A stretch of DNA of 32,994 bases from assembly GCA_900318175.1 (NCBI GenBank), contig ONJQ01000027.1:1-32994 (forward strand). The letters run 5' to 3'. Position 1 is the first letter of the stretch, and each line of letters opens with the position of its first letter. The notes beneath the pieces were generated by a model. The model was given only the letters and a program-made list of their open reading frames with translations, made no database searches and had not been told where the DNA came from. This document shows positions 12,178-19,038 of the stretch, piece after piece. Source of the DNA: an uncultured Bacteroidales bacterium. Lineage in GTDB: Bacteria > Bacteroidota > Bacteroidia > Bacteroidales > P3. Both the position numbers and the translations under genes were made by a program.

Positions 12178-13551
12178 ATGAAAACAATGAGAAAGGTATC
12201 CATTTTCAAGGTAGTCGCACTAACATTTATGACCATCGGCTGCCTTGTTTCCTGCAATCAAAACACTCAAAACGGACCCACCGTCAACGAAATGCAGACC
12301 CGCCTGAACGACATTATGAAAGAGTATCAGGAGATGCAGAGCACCTGCGATGACTACAGCCGTCAGCTGGCCGCAAAGGACAGTTCCATCCAGGCACAGG
12401 CCGCCGAAATCCAGCGCCTCATCGACCAACTGGGCACTGCCGGCAAGAGCACCGCTGTTAAGGGTGGCCGCACCGCCGCTAAGGCAAGCCCCGCTCAGCA
12501 GCGCAAACTCCGCGCCGAGCTCAAGGCTAAAAAAGCCGAAATCGCCCGTCTGCAGGAACGTCTCAACCAGCAAACTGCCGAACTCAATGCCCTTAAAGCT
12601 GCCGACAACTATGCCGACCGCGAGGCTTTAGCCCGTCTGCAAATGCTGGTGAAAGACCAGGAAAACCGCATCATTGCCCTGACCAACGACAAAGTAGCCC
12701 TCACCAATATCAACGACTCGCTGGTAGCCCACGTGGCCTATCTGATGGGTCAGCGAATGGACAGCGAGAAGACCTCCAATGCCGAATATGCCGCACAGGT
12801 TGCCGTGCTGCAAGACCAGGTGGCCAACCAGCAGACTGAAATCAACCGTCTGCGTGAAGAGCTGGCCAAGCAGACCGCAGCAGCCCAAGAGGCCGCCAAG
12901 AAGAGCAACACCGCTGCAACACAGACCAAGACTGATGTGGCCAAGACAAAAGGCTCCATCAACAAGAAACTTGCTCAGTTGCAAGCTCAGTGCGACGAGT
13001 ACTATGAAGAACTGGAGCGTCTCCGCGCCGAGAACATCATCCTGAAAAACGAGAACGACAGCCTCCGCAGTCAAGTGGTCACCATGAAGAAGAACGTCGA
13101 GAACGTAGCTGTCGAAAACGCCAAAATGGCCGCCAAGATGAGCCGCGCTTCCGTCCTCTCCACCTCCGAACTGAACGTCACCCCGCTGAAACGCCTCAGC
13201 AACGGTACTGGCAAGCCGACCTCCCGTGCTTCCGCAACCCACGCTTTCCGCATTGAAGGTTATCTGATGGGCAACTCGGTTGTCGAGCCCGGCACCATCA
13301 CCCTCTACGCTGTCATCACCTCTCCCTCCAACGTTGTGCTGCACAATGGCACTGTGGAGCAGAAATTCGACGCCAACGGCGTGCGCACCACCTACACGAT
13401 GGTTCAGGCCTACGAGTTCACCGGCCAAACCCGTCCCTTCGACATGAGCTGGAGCTGCGACGACCAGACGGAACTGGAATCCGGCGTCTATCGCCTGAGC
13501 CTCTATGCCAACGGCAACCTTATCGGTGTCACCGAGTTCAAGTTGAAATAA
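12178..13551 (+). CDS. coiled-coil lipoprotein with C-terminal beta domain
   Basis: The 457-aa protein has a lipoprotein signal peptide with lipobox LVSC (C26). Residues about 34-320 are a long Ala/Gln/Glu/Lys-rich coiled coil with heptad-like leucines, broken by a basic Ala/Lys-rich segment near 88-110 and an Ala/Thr-rich one near 235-260. The last 115 residues (from about 343) look like a beta-sandwich (FRIEGYLMGNSVVEPG, GVYRLSLYANGNLIGVTEF). No named family was recognised. A membrane-anchored periplasmic spacer or scaffold is plausible. It is the first gene of a unit that continues into murL 33 bases later. A second ATG three codons in is also possible. Confidence 0.8.
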   Translation: MKTMRKVSIFKVVALTFMTIGCLVSCNQNTQNGPTVNEMQTRLNDIMKEYQEMQSTCDDYSRQLAAKDSSIQAQAAEIQRLIDQLGTAGKSTAVKGGRTAAKASPAQQRKLRAELKAKKAEIARLQERLNQQTAELNALKAADNYADREALARLQMLVKDQENRIIALTNDKVALTNINDSLVAHVAYLMGQRMDSEKTSNAEYAAQVAVLQDQVANQQTEINRLREELAKQTAAAQEAAKKSNTAATQTKTDVAKTKGSINKKLAQLQAQCDEYYEELERLRAENIILKNENDSLRSQVVTMKKNVENVAVENAKMAAKMSRASVLSTSELNVTPLKRLSNGTGKPTSRASATHAFRIEGYLMGNSVVEPGTITLYAVITSPSNVVLHNGTVEQKFDANGVRTTYTMVQAYEFTGQTRPFDMSWSCDDQTELESGVYRLSLYANGNLIGVTEFKLK

Positions 13552-13584: not shown

Positions 13585-14955
13585 ATGTCCAACCAGACAA
13601 AATACATTTCTTTCCGCCAGACTTACCCCGAGTTTGTCTATGAAAGCTACCGTTACGATGTGCAGTCCGATGGGCTGCACATCGTATTTACTTTCCGCAT
13701 AGGCAACCACGAGTTCCACCCCACAGCGAAAATCCCGCCACGTAGGTTCCTGAACTTCGATCTGGACAGTGAGCTGATGAAGAGGCTTGTGTTCAACATC
13801 GGCATGATTGAGCTCATCAGCTATTGGAAATGCTTCTGTCCCCCGAGGGTGGTCGTTGCTTGCGGGCAACTCTCGGCATCGGAGAGAGAGTTTTGGCGGA
13901 AGGTGTACTACAACGGTTTGGGCGAGTTCTTTTACATCAACGGCATCGAGGCCTCGATGGAGGATTTCATGGAGCTGATTAGCCCAGAGCGCGAGCCGGG
14001 TGATTATCCACAAGTGGCCCATCTGCCCAAGGAAGACTGCTGCCTTGTGCCCATAGGTGGCGGCAAGGACTCGGTGGTGACACTGGAGCTGACGGCTGAG
14101 GCCTTGGGCACGCGGGCACACATCGTGCCGCTGATTATGAACCCCCGTGGGGCGACGGTGAACTGCGCCGCCCAGGCAGGCTACACAATGGAGGAGGTGC
14201 TGGTGATTCACCGCAGCATCGACCCCCACCTGCTGGAGCTGAACGCCGCGGGGTGTTTGAACGGTCACACACCCTTCAGCGCGATGCTTGCTTTCTACAC
14301 GCTGCTGGCAGCAGCGTTGAGCGGCATCCCGCACATCGCCCTTTCCAACGAGGCCAGCGCCAACGAGGCCACTGTGGCCGCCACAGGGGTGAACCACCAA
14401 TACTCAAAGAGCAAGGCTTTCGAGGACGATTTCCGCAGCCATGTAGCCACAGCAGTGGGCAAGGGGTTCAACTATTACAGTTTCCTGCGTCCGCTGACGG
14501 AGTTGCAGATTGCGATGCTCTTCAGCCGGGAGCCGAAATATTTCGATGTGTTCCGCAGCTGCAATGCGGGCAGCAAGGAGGACCGCTGGTGCGGCAAGTG
14601 CGCCAAATGCCTCTTTGCCTACATCATCCTTTCCCCCTTCATTTCCCCAGAGCGTCTGGACGCCATTTTTGGACGCAACCTGCTGGACGACCCGCAACTG
14701 GAAAAGTACTTCATGGAGCTGACAGGCCACGGCGAGACGAAGCCTTTTGAGTGCGTAGGCACCATCGACGAGGTGAACGCCGCCCTGTGCATGGCAACAA
14801 CCCGCTGGTATGGCAAGCGGAAGCCTCTGCTTCTTCAGCGCCATGCACCACAACCCTGCAAGTTGCCACTCGACGCCCTAAGCGGCGACCACAACGTCCC
14901 TCCCCTATTGTTCAACAAACTGAAAGAGCATGTACAGGCAGCAGCAATGGGTTGA
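13585..14955 (+). CDS. murL: UDP-MurNAc-L-Ala-L-Glu epimerase MurL
   Basis: MurL converts the terminal L-Glu of UDP-MurNAc-L-Ala-L-Glu to D-Glu in an ATP-dependent reaction. With MurD2 it replaces the usual MurI plus MurD route; the pair was characterised in Xanthomonas oryzae. The 456-aa protein has an N-terminal domain of about 145 residues. It then has a PP-loop-like nucleotide motif IGGGKDS (157-163) and the conserved SNEASANEAT (254-263). A cysteine group follows, C326, C336, C339 and C342 (RSCN...WCGKCAKC). The size and motif order fit MurL. The GTG at 13582 precedes the ATG at 13585, and the ATG is chosen. The gene overlaps murD2 by 26 bases, implying translational coupling. The assignment rests on motifs plus the MurD-family neighbour. 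Confidence 0.85.
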   Translation: MSNQTKYISFRQTYPEFVYESYRYDVQSDGLHIVFTFRIGNHEFHPTAKIPPRRFLNFDLDSELMKRLVFNIGMIELISYWKCFCPPRVVVACGQLSASEREFWRKVYYNGLGEFFYINGIEASMEDFMELISPEREPGDYPQVAHLPKEDCCLVPIGGGKDSVVTLELTAEALGTRAHIVPLIMNPRGATVNCAAQAGYTMEEVLVIHRSIDPHLLELNAAGCLNGHTPFSAMLAFYTLLAAALSGIPHIALSNEASANEATVAATGVNHQYSKSKAFEDDFRSHVATAVGKGFNYYSFLRPLTELQIAMLFSREPKYFDVFRSCNAGSKEDRWCGKCAKCLFAYIILSPFISPERLDAIFGRNLLDDPQLEKYFMELTGHGETKPFECVGTIDEVNAALCMATTRWYGKRKPLLLQRHAPQPCKLPLDALSGDHNVPPLLFNKLKEHVQAAAMG

Positions 14956-16285
14956 ACGTCTGGCTAACCGTCGCATACTGATTGCGGGGTACGGCCGTGA
15001 GGGCAAAAGCACACATGCCTTGGTAGGGCAGCTTGCACCCACGGCAGAGGTGACTGTGGCCGCAAACGACCAAGAAGCCATCGCTCTGATGGACGCTGCA
15101 CGGGCCAAGGGCACACAGTACGACATGGTCGTCAAATCACCAGGCATCCCCACCATGAAACTGGAGGGGCACTGCGACCCCGAGACCATCACCTCGCAGA
15201 CCGACCTCTTTCTGCAAATTTATGGTGACCAGACTATAGCCGTCACGGGCACCAAGGGGAAAAGCACCACGACCAAGCTTATCGCACACGTGTTGGGGAC
15301 GGCACTTGCCGACGGCAGAAAGACCATACTGGCAGGGAATATAGGCATACCACTGTTCGACATCGTCCCTGAGTTGGATGACCACAGTATAGTTGTAGCG
15401 GAGCTGTCCTGCCACCAGCTGGAGAACATACACCGCGGGCCGCGGACGGGTGTGCTCCTCAACCTCTTCCCTGAACATCTGGACCATTACCGCGACTACC
15501 GCGACTACGAGCTGGCCAAAATGCAGTTGGTGCTGCGCCAAAGCAAGGGTGACGTCTGCATCGTCAATACCGACAGCAAGGATCTCCACACCCTCTGCCA
15601 CGAGCTGGAGGACCGTATACACTCCACGGTTCATTACTATTCCGGGCGGCAGGCCGACCAGCTGCTGGGCGCGGTCCCGTCGCCGCTGCAGGGCAGCCAC
15701 AACAGGGCCAACACCTATGCGGCCTGGCTTGCAGCGGAGCTGCAGGGGGTGACTTTCGACCGGTTCACAAAAGCCTTAGCCTCGTTCCAACCCCTGCCCC
15801 ACCGCTTAGAAAGGGTGGGCACTTACGGGGGCATCACCTTCTATAACGATTCCATCAGCACCATTCCGCAAGCCACGATTGCCGCGGTGGAGACGCTTGA
15901 GAGGGTGGACACGCTGATTGTCGGCGGCATGGACCGCGGCATAGACTACGGCGCGCTGGTGCAATACCTGGCCCATCCCACGCGGGCGGGTAGCCAAATC
16001 AGCAATGTGGCTTTTGTGGGGCAGGCGGGCAGGCGCATACACCACGACCTTGCACGGCTGCCCGATCGTCCGCTGGACAGGATGAATGCCTTGCTGCTGA
16101 GCGACGACTACAGAGTTATCGTCTCATGGTGTTTCGAGCATACGGCTGCGGGCAAGATCTGCCTCCTCTCCCCTGCCGCGGCAAGCTACGACGGTTTCAA
16201 GAACTTCGAGGAGCGCGGCAACACCTATAAGAATCTGATACGGTCCATGGGCGGGAGCGCCATGGATGCGACAAGTGAAAAGTGA
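14930..16285 (+). CDS. murD2: MurD-family ligase, MurD2 type (UDP-MurNAc-L-Ala : L-Glu ligase)
   Basis: The 451-aa cytosolic ligase has the Mur ligase layout. It starts with a UDP-binding N-terminal domain (ILIAGYGREGKS, 16-27), followed by the ATP P-loop VTGTKGKSTTTK (105-116). Next come ELSCHQLE (158-165), NLFPEHLDHY (178-187) and K197 in the position of the carbamylated lysine region. The C-terminal domain contains VGGMDRGIDY. Ordinary MurD enzymes usually have SSFQLE and a D-H-[LM]-D motif; here SCHQLE and E-H-L-D are seen, consistent with a divergent subtype. Because it overlaps murL it is assigned as the L-Glu-adding MurD2, which is an inference from context. The last codons, encoding T-S-E-K, fall in an AGTGAAAAGTGAAT tract also found near the four-helix-bundle gene. 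Confidence 0.85.
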   Translation: MYRQQQWVERLANRRILIAGYGREGKSTHALVGQLAPTAEVTVAANDQEAIALMDAARAKGTQYDMVVKSPGIPTMKLEGHCDPETITSQTDLFLQIYGDQTIAVTGTKGKSTTTKLIAHVLGTALADGRKTILAGNIGIPLFDIVPELDDHSIVVAELSCHQLENIHRGPRTGVLLNLFPEHLDHYRDYRDYELAKMQLVLRQSKGDVCIVNTDSKDLHTLCHELEDRIHSTVHYYSGRQADQLLGAVPSPLQGSHNRANTYAAWLAAELQGVTFDRFTKALASFQPLPHRLERVGTYGGITFYNDSISTIPQATIAAVETLERVDTLIVGGMDRGIDYGALVQYLAHPTRAGSQISNVAFVGQAGRRIHHDLARLPDRPLDRMNALLLSDDYRVIVSWCFEHTAAGKICLLSPAAASYDGFKNFEERGNTYKNLIRSMGGSAMDATSEK

Positions 16286-16303: not shown

Positions 16304-17389
16304 ATGACATACACTGACATACGACACGAGCTTCACAACCATCCCGGCATATCGGGCGACGAGCATTTTGCCCACGACCTGATTGTGGAGCGTCTTGCCG
16401 CGGCCCGTCCCGACGCCGTCCACTCCCATGTGGGAGGTTTTGGGGTCGTAGCCGTGTGGGGCAAGGACCGTTCGCTGCCCACCATAGCCATCCGCGGCGA
16501 TATTGACGCACTGCCCTCGGGGCACCGCTGCGGACATGACGGCCACACCACCATACTGCTGCAGGTGGCTGAAATGATCGGGAACAGGGAACTGCCAAAA
16601 AAGCACAACATCATACTCGTTTTCCAACCCGAGGAGGAGACGGGGAGGGGCTCGCAGAAGATGCTTGATGCAGGAATACTGCAACAGTACAACATCCGCG
16701 CCATCTACGGCTTCCACAACCTGCCAGGCTTCCCCTTAGGCACTGCGATACTGAACTACCACACATTTGCTGCCGCATCCACAGGCGTCATCTATCACTT
16801 GGTCGGTAGGCAGACACATGCCTCCACCCCGGAAAAGGGCATCAATCCCGGCCTTGCCATAGCTGAAATCATCTACGAATTCAACCGCCTGAACAGCCCC
16901 GCAAATGCACCGGACAACAATTTCCGCCAAAGCACGCTGATAGGTATTCGTGCCGGCGAAGAGGCATTCGGCACCTCGGCAGGCGAGGCGGAACTGATGT
17001 ACACCCTCCGCGCCTTCACCAACACCACGATGCACCAGCTGATTGCGGACACAAACACGATTGTGTCCGTAGCCGCAGCCCGCCACGGGCTGAAGGTGCA
17101 GCATTCTCTGATTGACACCTTCCGTGCCACCGAGAACCATTCGCTGATGGTGGAACAACTTGAGGAGGCTCTTAGCGATGCGGGCATCCCCTACCGCCAT
17201 ATCCTGACCCCCTTCCGCTGGTCGGAGGACTTTGCCAACTATCTGGTCTCTTTCCCCGGCGCCATGTTCGGCATTGGGAGCGGCGAGCATCAACCAGAGC
17301 TGCATCACCCCGAATACGACTTCCCTGACGACCTAATTCTCCCTGCCGCACAGACCATAATGGCTGTCATAGACGCTTTCAAACCCTGA
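16304..17389 (+). CDS. M20-family (M20D type) amidohydrolase
   Basis: The 361-aa metallohydrolase resembles the M20D amidohydrolases, which cleave N-acyl amino acids or related amides with a two-metal centre. Metal and catalytic residues are visible as C76 and H78 in HRCGHDGH, E111 and E112 in FQPEEE, H138 in GFHN and H334 in LHHPEYDF. A lid domain starts near HLVGRQTHAS (165-174). There is no signal peptide, so it is cytosolic. It follows murD2 by 18 bases. Family members include N-acetyl-diaminopimelate deacetylase, so a link to cell-wall precursor metabolism is possible but not shown. Confidence 0.88.
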   Translation: MTYTDIRHELHNHPGISGDEHFAHDLIVERLAAARPDAVHSHVGGFGVVAVWGKDRSLPTIAIRGDIDALPSGHRCGHDGHTTILLQVAEMIGNRELPKKHNIILVFQPEEETGRGSQKMLDAGILQQYNIRAIYGFHNLPGFPLGTAILNYHTFAAASTGVIYHLVGRQTHASTPEKGINPGLAIAEIIYEFNRLNSPANAPDNNFRQSTLIGIRAGEEAFGTSAGEAELMYTLRAFTNTTMHQLIADTNTIVSVAAARHGLKVQHSLIDTFRATENHSLMVEQLEEALSDAGIPYRHILTPFRWSEDFANYLVSFPGAMFGIGSGEHQPELHHPEYDFPDDLILPAAQTIMAVIDAFKP

Positions 17390-17433: not shown

Positions 17434-19038
17434 ATGAAAAAGTTTCTATTTACGATTGTCATGACGGCTCTGCTGCTCACCTGCGGGGCACAGGAGCTGA
17501 GCCAACCGGAATTTGACGGACAGAGCTGCACAAGCATTATGGTGGGTAAACGCGCCTCGAAGGACGGCAGTGTGATTACCTCCCACACCTGCGACGGCCG
17601 CTACCGCACTTGGATGCACATGGAGCCCGCTGCTGACCATGAGCCGGGTACGGTTCACGCAGTCTACAAGGGCACGCTGCACACCACTTTCCGTGGCGAC
17701 ACGACGGGTGTCCGCCTGGTGGGTGCCATCCCTGAGGCCGCTCACACCTACGCCTACCTGAACACGGCCTACCCCTGCCTGAACGAGCATCAGCTGGCCA
17801 TTGGCGAGAGCACCTTCGGCGGCCCCGACACGCTGCGCAACCCCGCCGGCATGTTCCTGATTGAGGAGCTGGAGCGCGTGGCCCTGCAACGCTGCACGAC
17901 AGCAAGAGACGCCATCCGCCTCATTGCCGGTCTCATCAAGGTATACGGCTACGCCGATGGTGGCGAGTGCATCACGATTGCCGACACGAAGGAAGTGTGG
18001 CAGATGGAGATTATCGGCGAAGGCAAGGACAATATCGGCGGCGTGTGGGCCGCACAGCGCATCCCCGACGACCACGTGGGCGTGAGCTGCAATATTCCCC
18101 GCATCGGTCGACTGCAGCGCGGCAACACGGAGTATTTCATGTGCTCCGACAATGCCGAGGCTGTTGCTCGTCGCTACGGCCTGTGGGACGGAAAGGGCGA
18201 GTTCATCTTCTGGAAGGCTTTCAACAGCAGCTATGCCAACGGGAAGAACTTCCGCGAAAGGGAGTTCTTCATCCTGAACGCCTTGGCCCCGTCGATGGGT
18301 CTGACGATGGACACGACCGAGCTGCCTTTCTCCGTCCGTCCCGACAAGAATGTGGATGTCCGCAAGGTGATGGAACTGCTGCGCAGCACCTATGAAGGCA
18401 CCGATATGGACATGTGCAAGAATGTGCGCATGCCTGTGACCCAGAAGGACAAAAACGGCAAGGAGTTTACGGACACAATTATCAGCCCGATCGCCAACCC
18501 GTGGCTGAGCTCCTCCATGCAGCGCACGCTGAACAACATCGCCCCCGGCACCATTGAGTTCCGTCGCACTGTGAGTGTGGCTTGGTGCTCCTACTCCTTT
18601 GTGGCGCAGCTGCGCGACTGGTTGCCCGACTGCGTGGGTGGTGTGTGCTGGATGAGTGTGGACAACCCTGGCCAGTCGCCCCGCGTGCCTATCTTCTGCG
18701 GCGGCAGCGAGCTGCCTCAGCCTTACAGCATTTGCGGCCAGAAGGAGTACAACCCGGATGCCATCATCTGGAAGTACCGCCGCGCCAACAAGCTGGCCAC
18801 CGTGGCTTGGCAACGCACTAAGGGCTCCATGCAGAACGAGCTGAAACGGCTTGAGGACAACGCCTTCGACCGCCTTGAGGCCATTGAGCGCGAGGCCACC
18901 CGTTTCAACCGCCTTAACCGCATCGACGATGTGCGTGCCACGCTGAACAACTTCACCCGTGACCAATACGAGAACACTTCCTTTGCTTGGAGCCAGTTGG
19001 AGGCCAAGTACTGGCACATGTTCGGCATGGGATTCTAA
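17434..19038 (+). CDS. C69-family dipeptidase (secreted)
   Basis: The 534-aa protein begins with a signal sequence (about 1-19). The C69 N-terminal nucleophile motif follows: C32 in SCTSIMVGKRASKDGSVI (31-48), which becomes the catalytic residue after processing. The remainder shows family features, including IGESTFGGPDT, GECITIADTKEVWQME and SCNIPRIGR. C69 enzymes hydrolyse dipeptides with broad specificity, here probably in the periplasm. The gene follows the M20 gene by 44 bases and is closed by a perfect terminator 11 bases after the stop, marking the end of the murL-murD2 unit. Confidence 0.9.
   Translation: MKKFLFTIVMTALLLTCGAQELSQPEFDGQSCTSIMVGKRASKDGSVITSHTCDGRYRTWMHMEPAADHEPGTVHAVYKGTLHTTFRGDTTGVRLVGAIPEAAHTYAYLNTAYPCLNEHQLAIGESTFGGPDTLRNPAGMFLIEELERVALQRCTTARDAIRLIAGLIKVYGYADGGECITIADTKEVWQMEIIGEGKDNIGGVWAAQRIPDDHVGVSCNIPRIGRLQRGNTEYFMCSDNAEAVARRYGLWDGKGEFIFWKAFNSSYANGKNFREREFFILNALAPSMGLTMDTTELPFSVRPDKNVDVRKVMELLRSTYEGTDMDMCKNVRMPVTQKDKNGKEFTDTIISPIANPWLSSSMQRTLNNIAPGTIEFRRTVSVAWCSYSFVAQLRDWLPDCVGGVCWMSVDNPGQSPRVPIFCGGSELPQPYSICGQKEYNPDAIIWKYRRANKLATVAWQRTKGSMQNELKRLEDNAFDRLEAIEREATRFNRLNRIDDVRATLNNFTRDQYENTSFAWSQLEAKYWHMFGMGF

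Follow-up and report, generated by a model that had tools for sequence, protein, structure and literature searches.

The 32,994-nucleotide stretch analyzed here (the window; contig ONJQ01000027.1 of assembly GCA_900318175.1, from an uncultured Bacteroidales bacterium) carries adjacent genes for a MurL relative and a MurD2-type ligase, a pair that in Xanthomonas supplies peptidoglycan precursors with D-glutamate (D-Glu) by an alternative route. The MurL-MurD2 route probably replaced MurI in this lineage, leaving the MurD ligase dispensable while its C-terminal domain (CTD) was kept for a second, ligase-independent role. This reading is carried by gene content, by the lack of a strong MurI match wherever MurL occurs, by repeated truncation of MurD at the same point and by purifying selection between close pairs of the truncated genes. 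A broader form of it is favored on balance: the Bacteroidales MurD CTD would have a ligase-independent job in wall synthesis, exposed by MurL-MurD2 through at least nine changes of state, with the truncated protein nearly always starting at a methionine that whole MurD already conserves and that is a possible internal start. Below, codes beginning with G denote sampled genomes and codes beginning with L fetched loci; G000 is the window's own genome (2.9 Mb in 70 contigs, 91.8% complete), in which the window is contig G000:C51.

The first gene of the pair (13585..14955, forward strand; open reading frame from 13582, 456 aa from the ATG at 13585) encodes an IGGGKDS motif resembling that of PP-loop proteins and a group of four cysteines. 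Against the MurL profile NF041275 its product gives E 6.3e-79, with residues 14-420 aligned to profile positions 7-408 of 447. The second gene (14930..16285, forward strand, 451 aa) encodes a protein with the motifs SCHQLE and FPEHLD that scores 279.9 bits against the murD model TIGR01087, over the cut-off of 211.95. The preliminary description of this DNA, made from the letters alone, had proposed a MurL-like protein and a divergent MurD ligase with SCHQLE and E-H-L-D motifs, encoded by genes overlapping by 26 bases. Both assignments hold, as does the overlap (14930-14955, same strand), and the profile search to which that description had tied its MurL call returned the strong match given above. 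In an alignment of 28 Bacteroidales MurL sequences (the window protein and 27 of 80 fetched loci), GGGKDS and the cysteines C326, C336, C339 and C342 are invariant in 28/28. Across the 80 named loci, a same-strand MurD2 match adjoins MurL in 67, in 66 of them within 200 bases. The profile scores and this conserved pairing exclude a chance match.

In nine of the 80 named loci (L190, L191, L193, L194, L199, L238, L241, L242 and L243), MurL and MurD2 are fused in a single frame of 882-937 codons. A fusion is likewise present in G033 as a 912-aa open reading frame (L083:1503-4241), and frames of about 900 codons at MurL are seen in G005, G020 and G034 as well.

MurI is absent from the own genome by profile search, the control matching in 10 of 14 genomes. 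D-amino acid transaminase (Dat), searched for in the own genome only, scores 39 bits where the cut-off is 277, and the only MurD over the cut-off there is the window copy. MurC, MurE, MraY and MurG score above their cut-offs, and an FtsW-type protein scores below its own. Because no MurI, no Dat over the cut-off and no second full-length MurD is found, MurL-MurD2 seems to have replaced the usual D-Glu route in this genome rather than to run in parallel with it. The preliminary description had allowed for either replacement of MurI and MurD or two routes in one cell; the own genome comes down on the side of replacement. Neither of the outcomes that it had named as refuting came about. Of the second murD that it advised looking for in the division and cell-wall (dcw) cluster, no full-length copy lies there, but a murD consisting of the CTD only survives. 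Incompleteness of the own genome lends some room to the view that the normal D-Glu route is present too and MurI has merely dropped out of a draft assembly. That view is very improbable, given that a MurI match at E 0.001 occurs in none of the 37 genomes of the genus and that E 4e-21 is the best MurI match in any MurL genome of the order-wide set described below.

The exclusion of MurI by MurL extends well beyond the own genome. A genus-level set of 61 genomes comprises the own genome and 60 relatives, 37 of them in all belonging to the genus and 24 lying outside it. Within this set, MurL occurs in 33/37 of the genus and 6/24 of the others, MurI in 0/37 (at E 0.001) and 17/24, and the two never occur together. 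In an order-wide set of 295 Bacteroidales genomes (the own genome included; requested completeness at least 90%), MurL is found in 95 (56 of the 177 genera), and 186 have MurI over its cut-off. Of the 95 MurL genomes, 22 give some match to the MurI model, none of them over that cut-off, the best being E 4e-21 (G295) and the rest E 3e-12 or weaker; Fisher's test for non-overlap gives 1e-62, with relatedness ignored. One genome of a different family, G051 (L172, family code f16; 98% complete), gives no match to either MurI or MurL, and none of its MurD matches passes the cut-off; it carries a CTD-only MurD gene between mraY and ftsW.

In their available text, the reviews of MurL name bearers among Gamma- and Alphaproteobacteria and actinobacteria, along with low-similarity orthologs in a fungus, cyanobacteria and an amoeba, and list no Bacteroidales (PMC8788868; PMC5808125). 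Searches of the open-access literature, as far as its text was available, found nothing on MurL in Bacteroidetes or on the absence of MurI in Bacteroidales. The Bacteroidales pair is a new, large branch of the known MurL-MurD2 route. By textbook account MurD and MurI are both essential, and both serve as antibiotic targets. About one-third of the sampled Bacteroidales (95 of 295) carry MurL without a strong MurI match; they are accordingly expected to do without MurI, and their MurL-MurD2 pair would offer a target in bacteria absent from the published lists, so far as those lists are accessible.

The residues of the window MurD2 point to the substrate expected of this route. Aligned to E. coli MurD, with residue numbers placed by motif and presumed to be correct, the window protein has Glu at D182, Arg at K348 and Ile at K319. 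Among 63 Bacteroidales MurD2 sequences (the own protein and 62 of the 67 hit loci, rows with stops or not exceeding 250 residues having been dropped), the same residues appear in 62/63, 63/63 and 63/63, respectively. The window MurD2 otherwise retains the MurD fold, the equivalents of K115, N138, E157, H183 and K198, and a complete C-terminal domain, its match covering murD positions 1-440. In X. oryzae MurD2, Glu197 and Arg358, the counterparts of D182 and K348, are reported to set specificity for L-Glu, and the K319T variant of E. coli MurD is reported to accept L-Glu (PMC8788868). The window MurD2 is accordingly best described as a predicted ligase that adds L-Glu. MurL is reported to generate AMP, and adenylation of the carboxylate before epimerization is the chemistry that a review proposes for it in the text available (PMC8788868). 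Matches of the Bacteroidales MurL sequences to PP-loop proteins are weak, with QueC hit in 5/28 aligned rows (best E 0.047) and TtuA at E 0.006. Together with the GGGKDS motif, these matches suggest that MurL may belong to the PP-loop ATP pyrophosphatases, activating the carboxylate by adenylation before epimerizing.

Where murD would usually lie in the own genome, with mraY on one side and ftsW on the other, there is a frame of 179 residues (G000:C55 25537-26076, minus strand; L009:9538-10077). Its product matches TIGR01087 over positions 291-418 only, at 62.9 bits against the cut-off of 211.95, and is not a canonical three-domain ligase. A profile built from five CTD-only proteins (A1) matches solved MurD chains in their C-terminal domain (residues 276-455 of 7sir, E 9e-26). 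PF02875 is found at E 0.01 or better in 5/5 CTD-only proteins, although that of the own genome lies below the Pfam gathering score. The CTD-only frame is unbroken, at 177-237 codons, in 36 of the 37 genus genomes, the own genome included; the genome without it is G026, which is 81% complete. The gene is present in G012, G017, G018 and G035 of the genus, in whose drafts MurL is unmatched, and outside the genus in G037, G039, G041 and, weakly, G051, all of other families.

Across the order, reduction of MurD is seen in a part of the MurL genomes but in none of the MurI genomes examined. The 95 MurL genomes divide into 39 with the CTD-only gene, 49 with a full-length canonical-type MurD, six with no canonical-type match (G056, G086, G104, G110, G157 and G325) and one cut by a contig end (G137). 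MurI genomes, defined by a best match of E 2e-45 or better or by joined pieces over the cut-off (G044), number 161, and of these 158 have full-length MurD, two no match (G053 and G158), one a contig-end cut (G179) and none a truncated MurD. Fisher's test on CTD-only genes in 39/88 MurL genomes against 0/157 MurI genomes gives 5e-21, relatedness being ignored and 157 being one below the 158 counted. Six genomes have neither MurL nor a single strong MurI match: G051 is CTD-only, and G108, G141, G237, G255 and G271 have full-length MurD, although G141 carries two MurI pieces (best E 5e-31) and could belong with the MurI genomes. The genes mraY and ftsW flank the CTD-only gene in all 38 of these 39 MurL genomes that were inspected (G332 left out); the contig of G041 holds only the end of mraY beside it. 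Neither a stand-alone MurD C-terminal domain nor its repeated origin was found in searches of the open-access literature, to the extent of the text available, where the phrase "truncated MurD" refers in one paper to a two-hybrid fragment in Acinetobacter (PMC12208494).

Artifacts were considered as causes of the short frames and rejected. None of 47 CTD-only frames touches the end of its fetched stretch, the contig-end cases G137 and G179 having been kept out of the truncated count. Assembly error was set aside as well, as the adjoining mraY and ftsW have their normal length at almost every locus; G298 and G215 show short mraY frames.

Truncation repeatedly removed the same part of MurD. In the 32 measurable loci the ATG of the CTD-only gene lies 1-274 nt past the mraY stop, and in 28 of these 1-62 nt; in the loci viewed by eye, no codons from upstream of the start methionine are left. 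The proteins begin at a common alignment column in 43 of 47 cases. This column is position 270 of the G049 frame (residue 266 from the ATG) and is methionine in 48 of 50 full-length MurD rows. On a MraY+FtsW tree of 46 fetched genomes (33 CTD-only, 13 full-length), computed by a quick method, the two states change ten times, nine of these changes being forced by strongly supported branches. An irreversible count that excludes regain gives 14 losses on one midpoint-rooted tree, and transfer of whole murD back into some lineages may reduce the number of losses; the count relied on here is the lower bound of nine changes. A tree that groups the CTD-only genomes as a single clade is rejected, being 797 log-likelihood units worse (AU p 1.3e-6), and both states of MurD occur within single genera (G070/G173, G084/G181, G177/G315, and G041 and G153 versus G236 and G300).

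The conserved methionine may serve as an internal translation start in whole MurD. In full-length genes its codon has A at -3 with a frequency of 0.66, other internal Met codons with one of 0.38; at -6 the values are 0.16 and 0.31, and two other Met columns are conserved at 87% and 81%. MurD of S. agalactiae (3lk7) has Met at the same column, so the residue may instead be structural.

These observations suggest a sequence of events in which MurI was lost and canonical MurD was no longer needed as a D-Glu ligase. The first ~265 codons, encoding the UDP-binding domain and most of the ATP-binding domain, would then have been deleted in many separate lineages, so that the C-terminal domain alone was left, encoded by a small gene between mraY and ftsW. 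Selection would have kept this domain for a second task that does not need the ligase, the best candidate being docking within the MraY-MurG-FtsW machinery on the cytoplasmic side. The position of the gene makes a docking or regulatory role there the likeliest second function of the CTD. Binding of MurD by MurG is reported in T. maritima (PMC6420597; PMC4929429).

The reduced gene shows the marks of a maintained protein. For the three closest CTD-only pairs listed, those with lowest dN, dN/dS is 0.049 (G021/G027), 0.038 (G009/G022) and 0.129 (G007/G009); with frames intact in nearly every genus genome, neither a broken reading frame nor an absence of selection marks it as a pseudogene. Family-weighted conservation in the CTD-only alignment reaches 91-100% at D331, E318, N338, W341, W353, I354, V375, A408, V409, S425 and F444 (numbering of that alignment). 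The N-x-x-W part of this set was not seen in the non-Bacteroidota MurD chains compared, and could therefore mark a Bacteroidales-specific contact. In E. coli MurD numbering, D317 is retained in 47/47 CTD-only proteins, R302 as R or K in 47/47 and S415 in 45/47. R302 and D317, which we take to contact the nucleotide in E. coli MurD, thus stay where K319 and K348 go, a pattern that would suit a CTD acting as a subunit of the new route, docked on MurD2 or MurL and helping to bind the nucleotide or the glutamyl product. The company the gene keeps agrees with this: in the genomes examined, CTD-only genes never occur with MurI; they accompany MurL or else, as in G051 and a few others, stand in genomes where neither of the two is detected. 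Yet MurD2 already has a complete C-terminal domain, 49 of the 95 MurL genomes make do with full-length MurD and no stand-alone domain, and the CTD gene lies between mraY and ftsW rather than next to murL. A subunit role is unlikely, and ranks second among the alternatives to a separate wall-synthesis role.

Several observations weigh against replacement of MurI followed by retention of the CTD for its own sake. Constraint on the domain is relaxed: median dN/dS is 0.37 for CTD-only genes (103 pairs with dS <2), whereas 42 pairs of full-length MurD give 0.16 over this domain. Among the more distant pairs listed, it rises to 0.71 for G088/G269, from different families (dN 0.64), and to 0.83 for G018/G171. 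The CTD-only gene is constrained, but less so than the same domain in the whole enzyme. Most catalytic residues have also decayed, K348 being kept in 10/47 and K319 in 20/47, with a family-weighted share of 0.0 for the histidine of the HN motif. Such decay, the faster evolution and the overlap or abutment of the ftsW frame with the end of the CTD frame in several loci could mean that the gene is functionless as a protein and that its frame is kept for a translation start or coupling signal for ftsW at its 3' end. A short sequence would suffice for coupling, however, rather than 180 codons, and neither the low dN/dS of the closest pairs, the unbroken frames nor the near-invariance of D331, E318, N338, W341 and S425 is expected of a leftover. 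This explanation is the most credible of the alternatives, and still an unlikely one.

A second point concerns MurL itself. The window protein scores 265.5 bits against NF041275, well under the curated cut-off of 700, which was set for the Xanthomonadales lineage of this equivalog model, and none of the Bacteroidales hits in the genome sets searched reaches that cut-off. In addition, the flanks of 13 of the 80 MurL loci lack a MurD2 match (L219, L222, L226, L231, L233, L245, L247, L251, L254, L258, L261, L264 and L265). A MurL-like protein that epimerizes some other substrate, or a pair that makes some other glutamyl product, would suit both, but sits poorly with the mutual exclusion of MurL and MurI, with MurD2 adjacency or fusion in the remaining 67 loci, with the specificity residues of MurD2 and with the search of the own genome, which turned up no further D-Glu source. 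It is quite improbable.

The whole MurD of other MurL genomes is harder to accommodate. Alignment of 34 such proteins shows K115, N138, E157, D182, H183, K198, R302, D317, K319 and K348 kept in 34/34, and N271 and S415 in 32. The 49 MurL genomes of the order-wide set with full-length MurD, and G049 besides, keep the whole protein without a strong MurI. Because its catalytic positions are intact though MurI is absent, whole MurD is not simply redundant in these genomes; judged by its residues, it is probably still an active D-Glu-type ligase. The CTD in turn may be dispensable, because six of the 95 MurL genomes and one of the 37 genus genomes have no canonical-type MurD, unless these are assembly gaps.

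Set beside known systems, the pair resembles the MurL-MurD2 route described for X. oryzae (XOO_1319/XOO_1320) and present also in Micromonospora and Salinispora (PMC8788868; PMC5808125). So far as the available accounts go, the two share adjacent genes for the epimerase and a MurD-like ligase, the lack of a detected MurI or D-amino acid transaminase, and Glu and Arg at the ligase specificity positions. On the same accounts, the Bacteroidales version differs in phylum, in the Ile at the K319 position, in the fusions found in 9/80 loci and in the persistence of the old MurD, whole or as CTD, in 88 of 95 MurL genomes. The small dcw gene corresponds by sequence and gene position to the C-terminal domain of canonical MurD (TIGR01087; E. 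coli 2jff, S. agalactiae 3lk7), but lacks the UDP- and ATP-binding domains and has mostly lost the catalytic lysines. Mur-ligase scaffolds on MurG or MreB offer a parallel in their reported non-catalytic contact of MurD with the lipid I/II machinery, although these involve whole enzymes from other phyla, and the text available mentions no MurD domain standing alone (PMC6420597; PMC4929429). Repeated reduction of MurD amounts to a natural domain-deletion experiment that separates the enzyme role from a possible other role of the last domain, and a protein of 180 residues gives a direct handle on the old question of Mur-ligase scaffolds.

The genes around the pair in the window are less constant companions. 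An M20-family amidohydrolase gene (16304..17389, forward strand) scores 174.3 bits against TIGR01891, above the cut-off, has matches in 20/80 MurL loci and is probably the third gene of the operon in the genus. In G014, MurD2 and the M20 protein are fused in a 787-codon frame (L069, G014:C27), with MurL at a separate locus. The gene for a coiled-coil protein upstream of murL (12178..13551, forward strand) has matches in 11/80 MurL loci and probably just neighbors murL. A C69 dipeptidase-like gene lies 3' of the M20 gene (17434-19038), with matches in 10/80 MurL loci.

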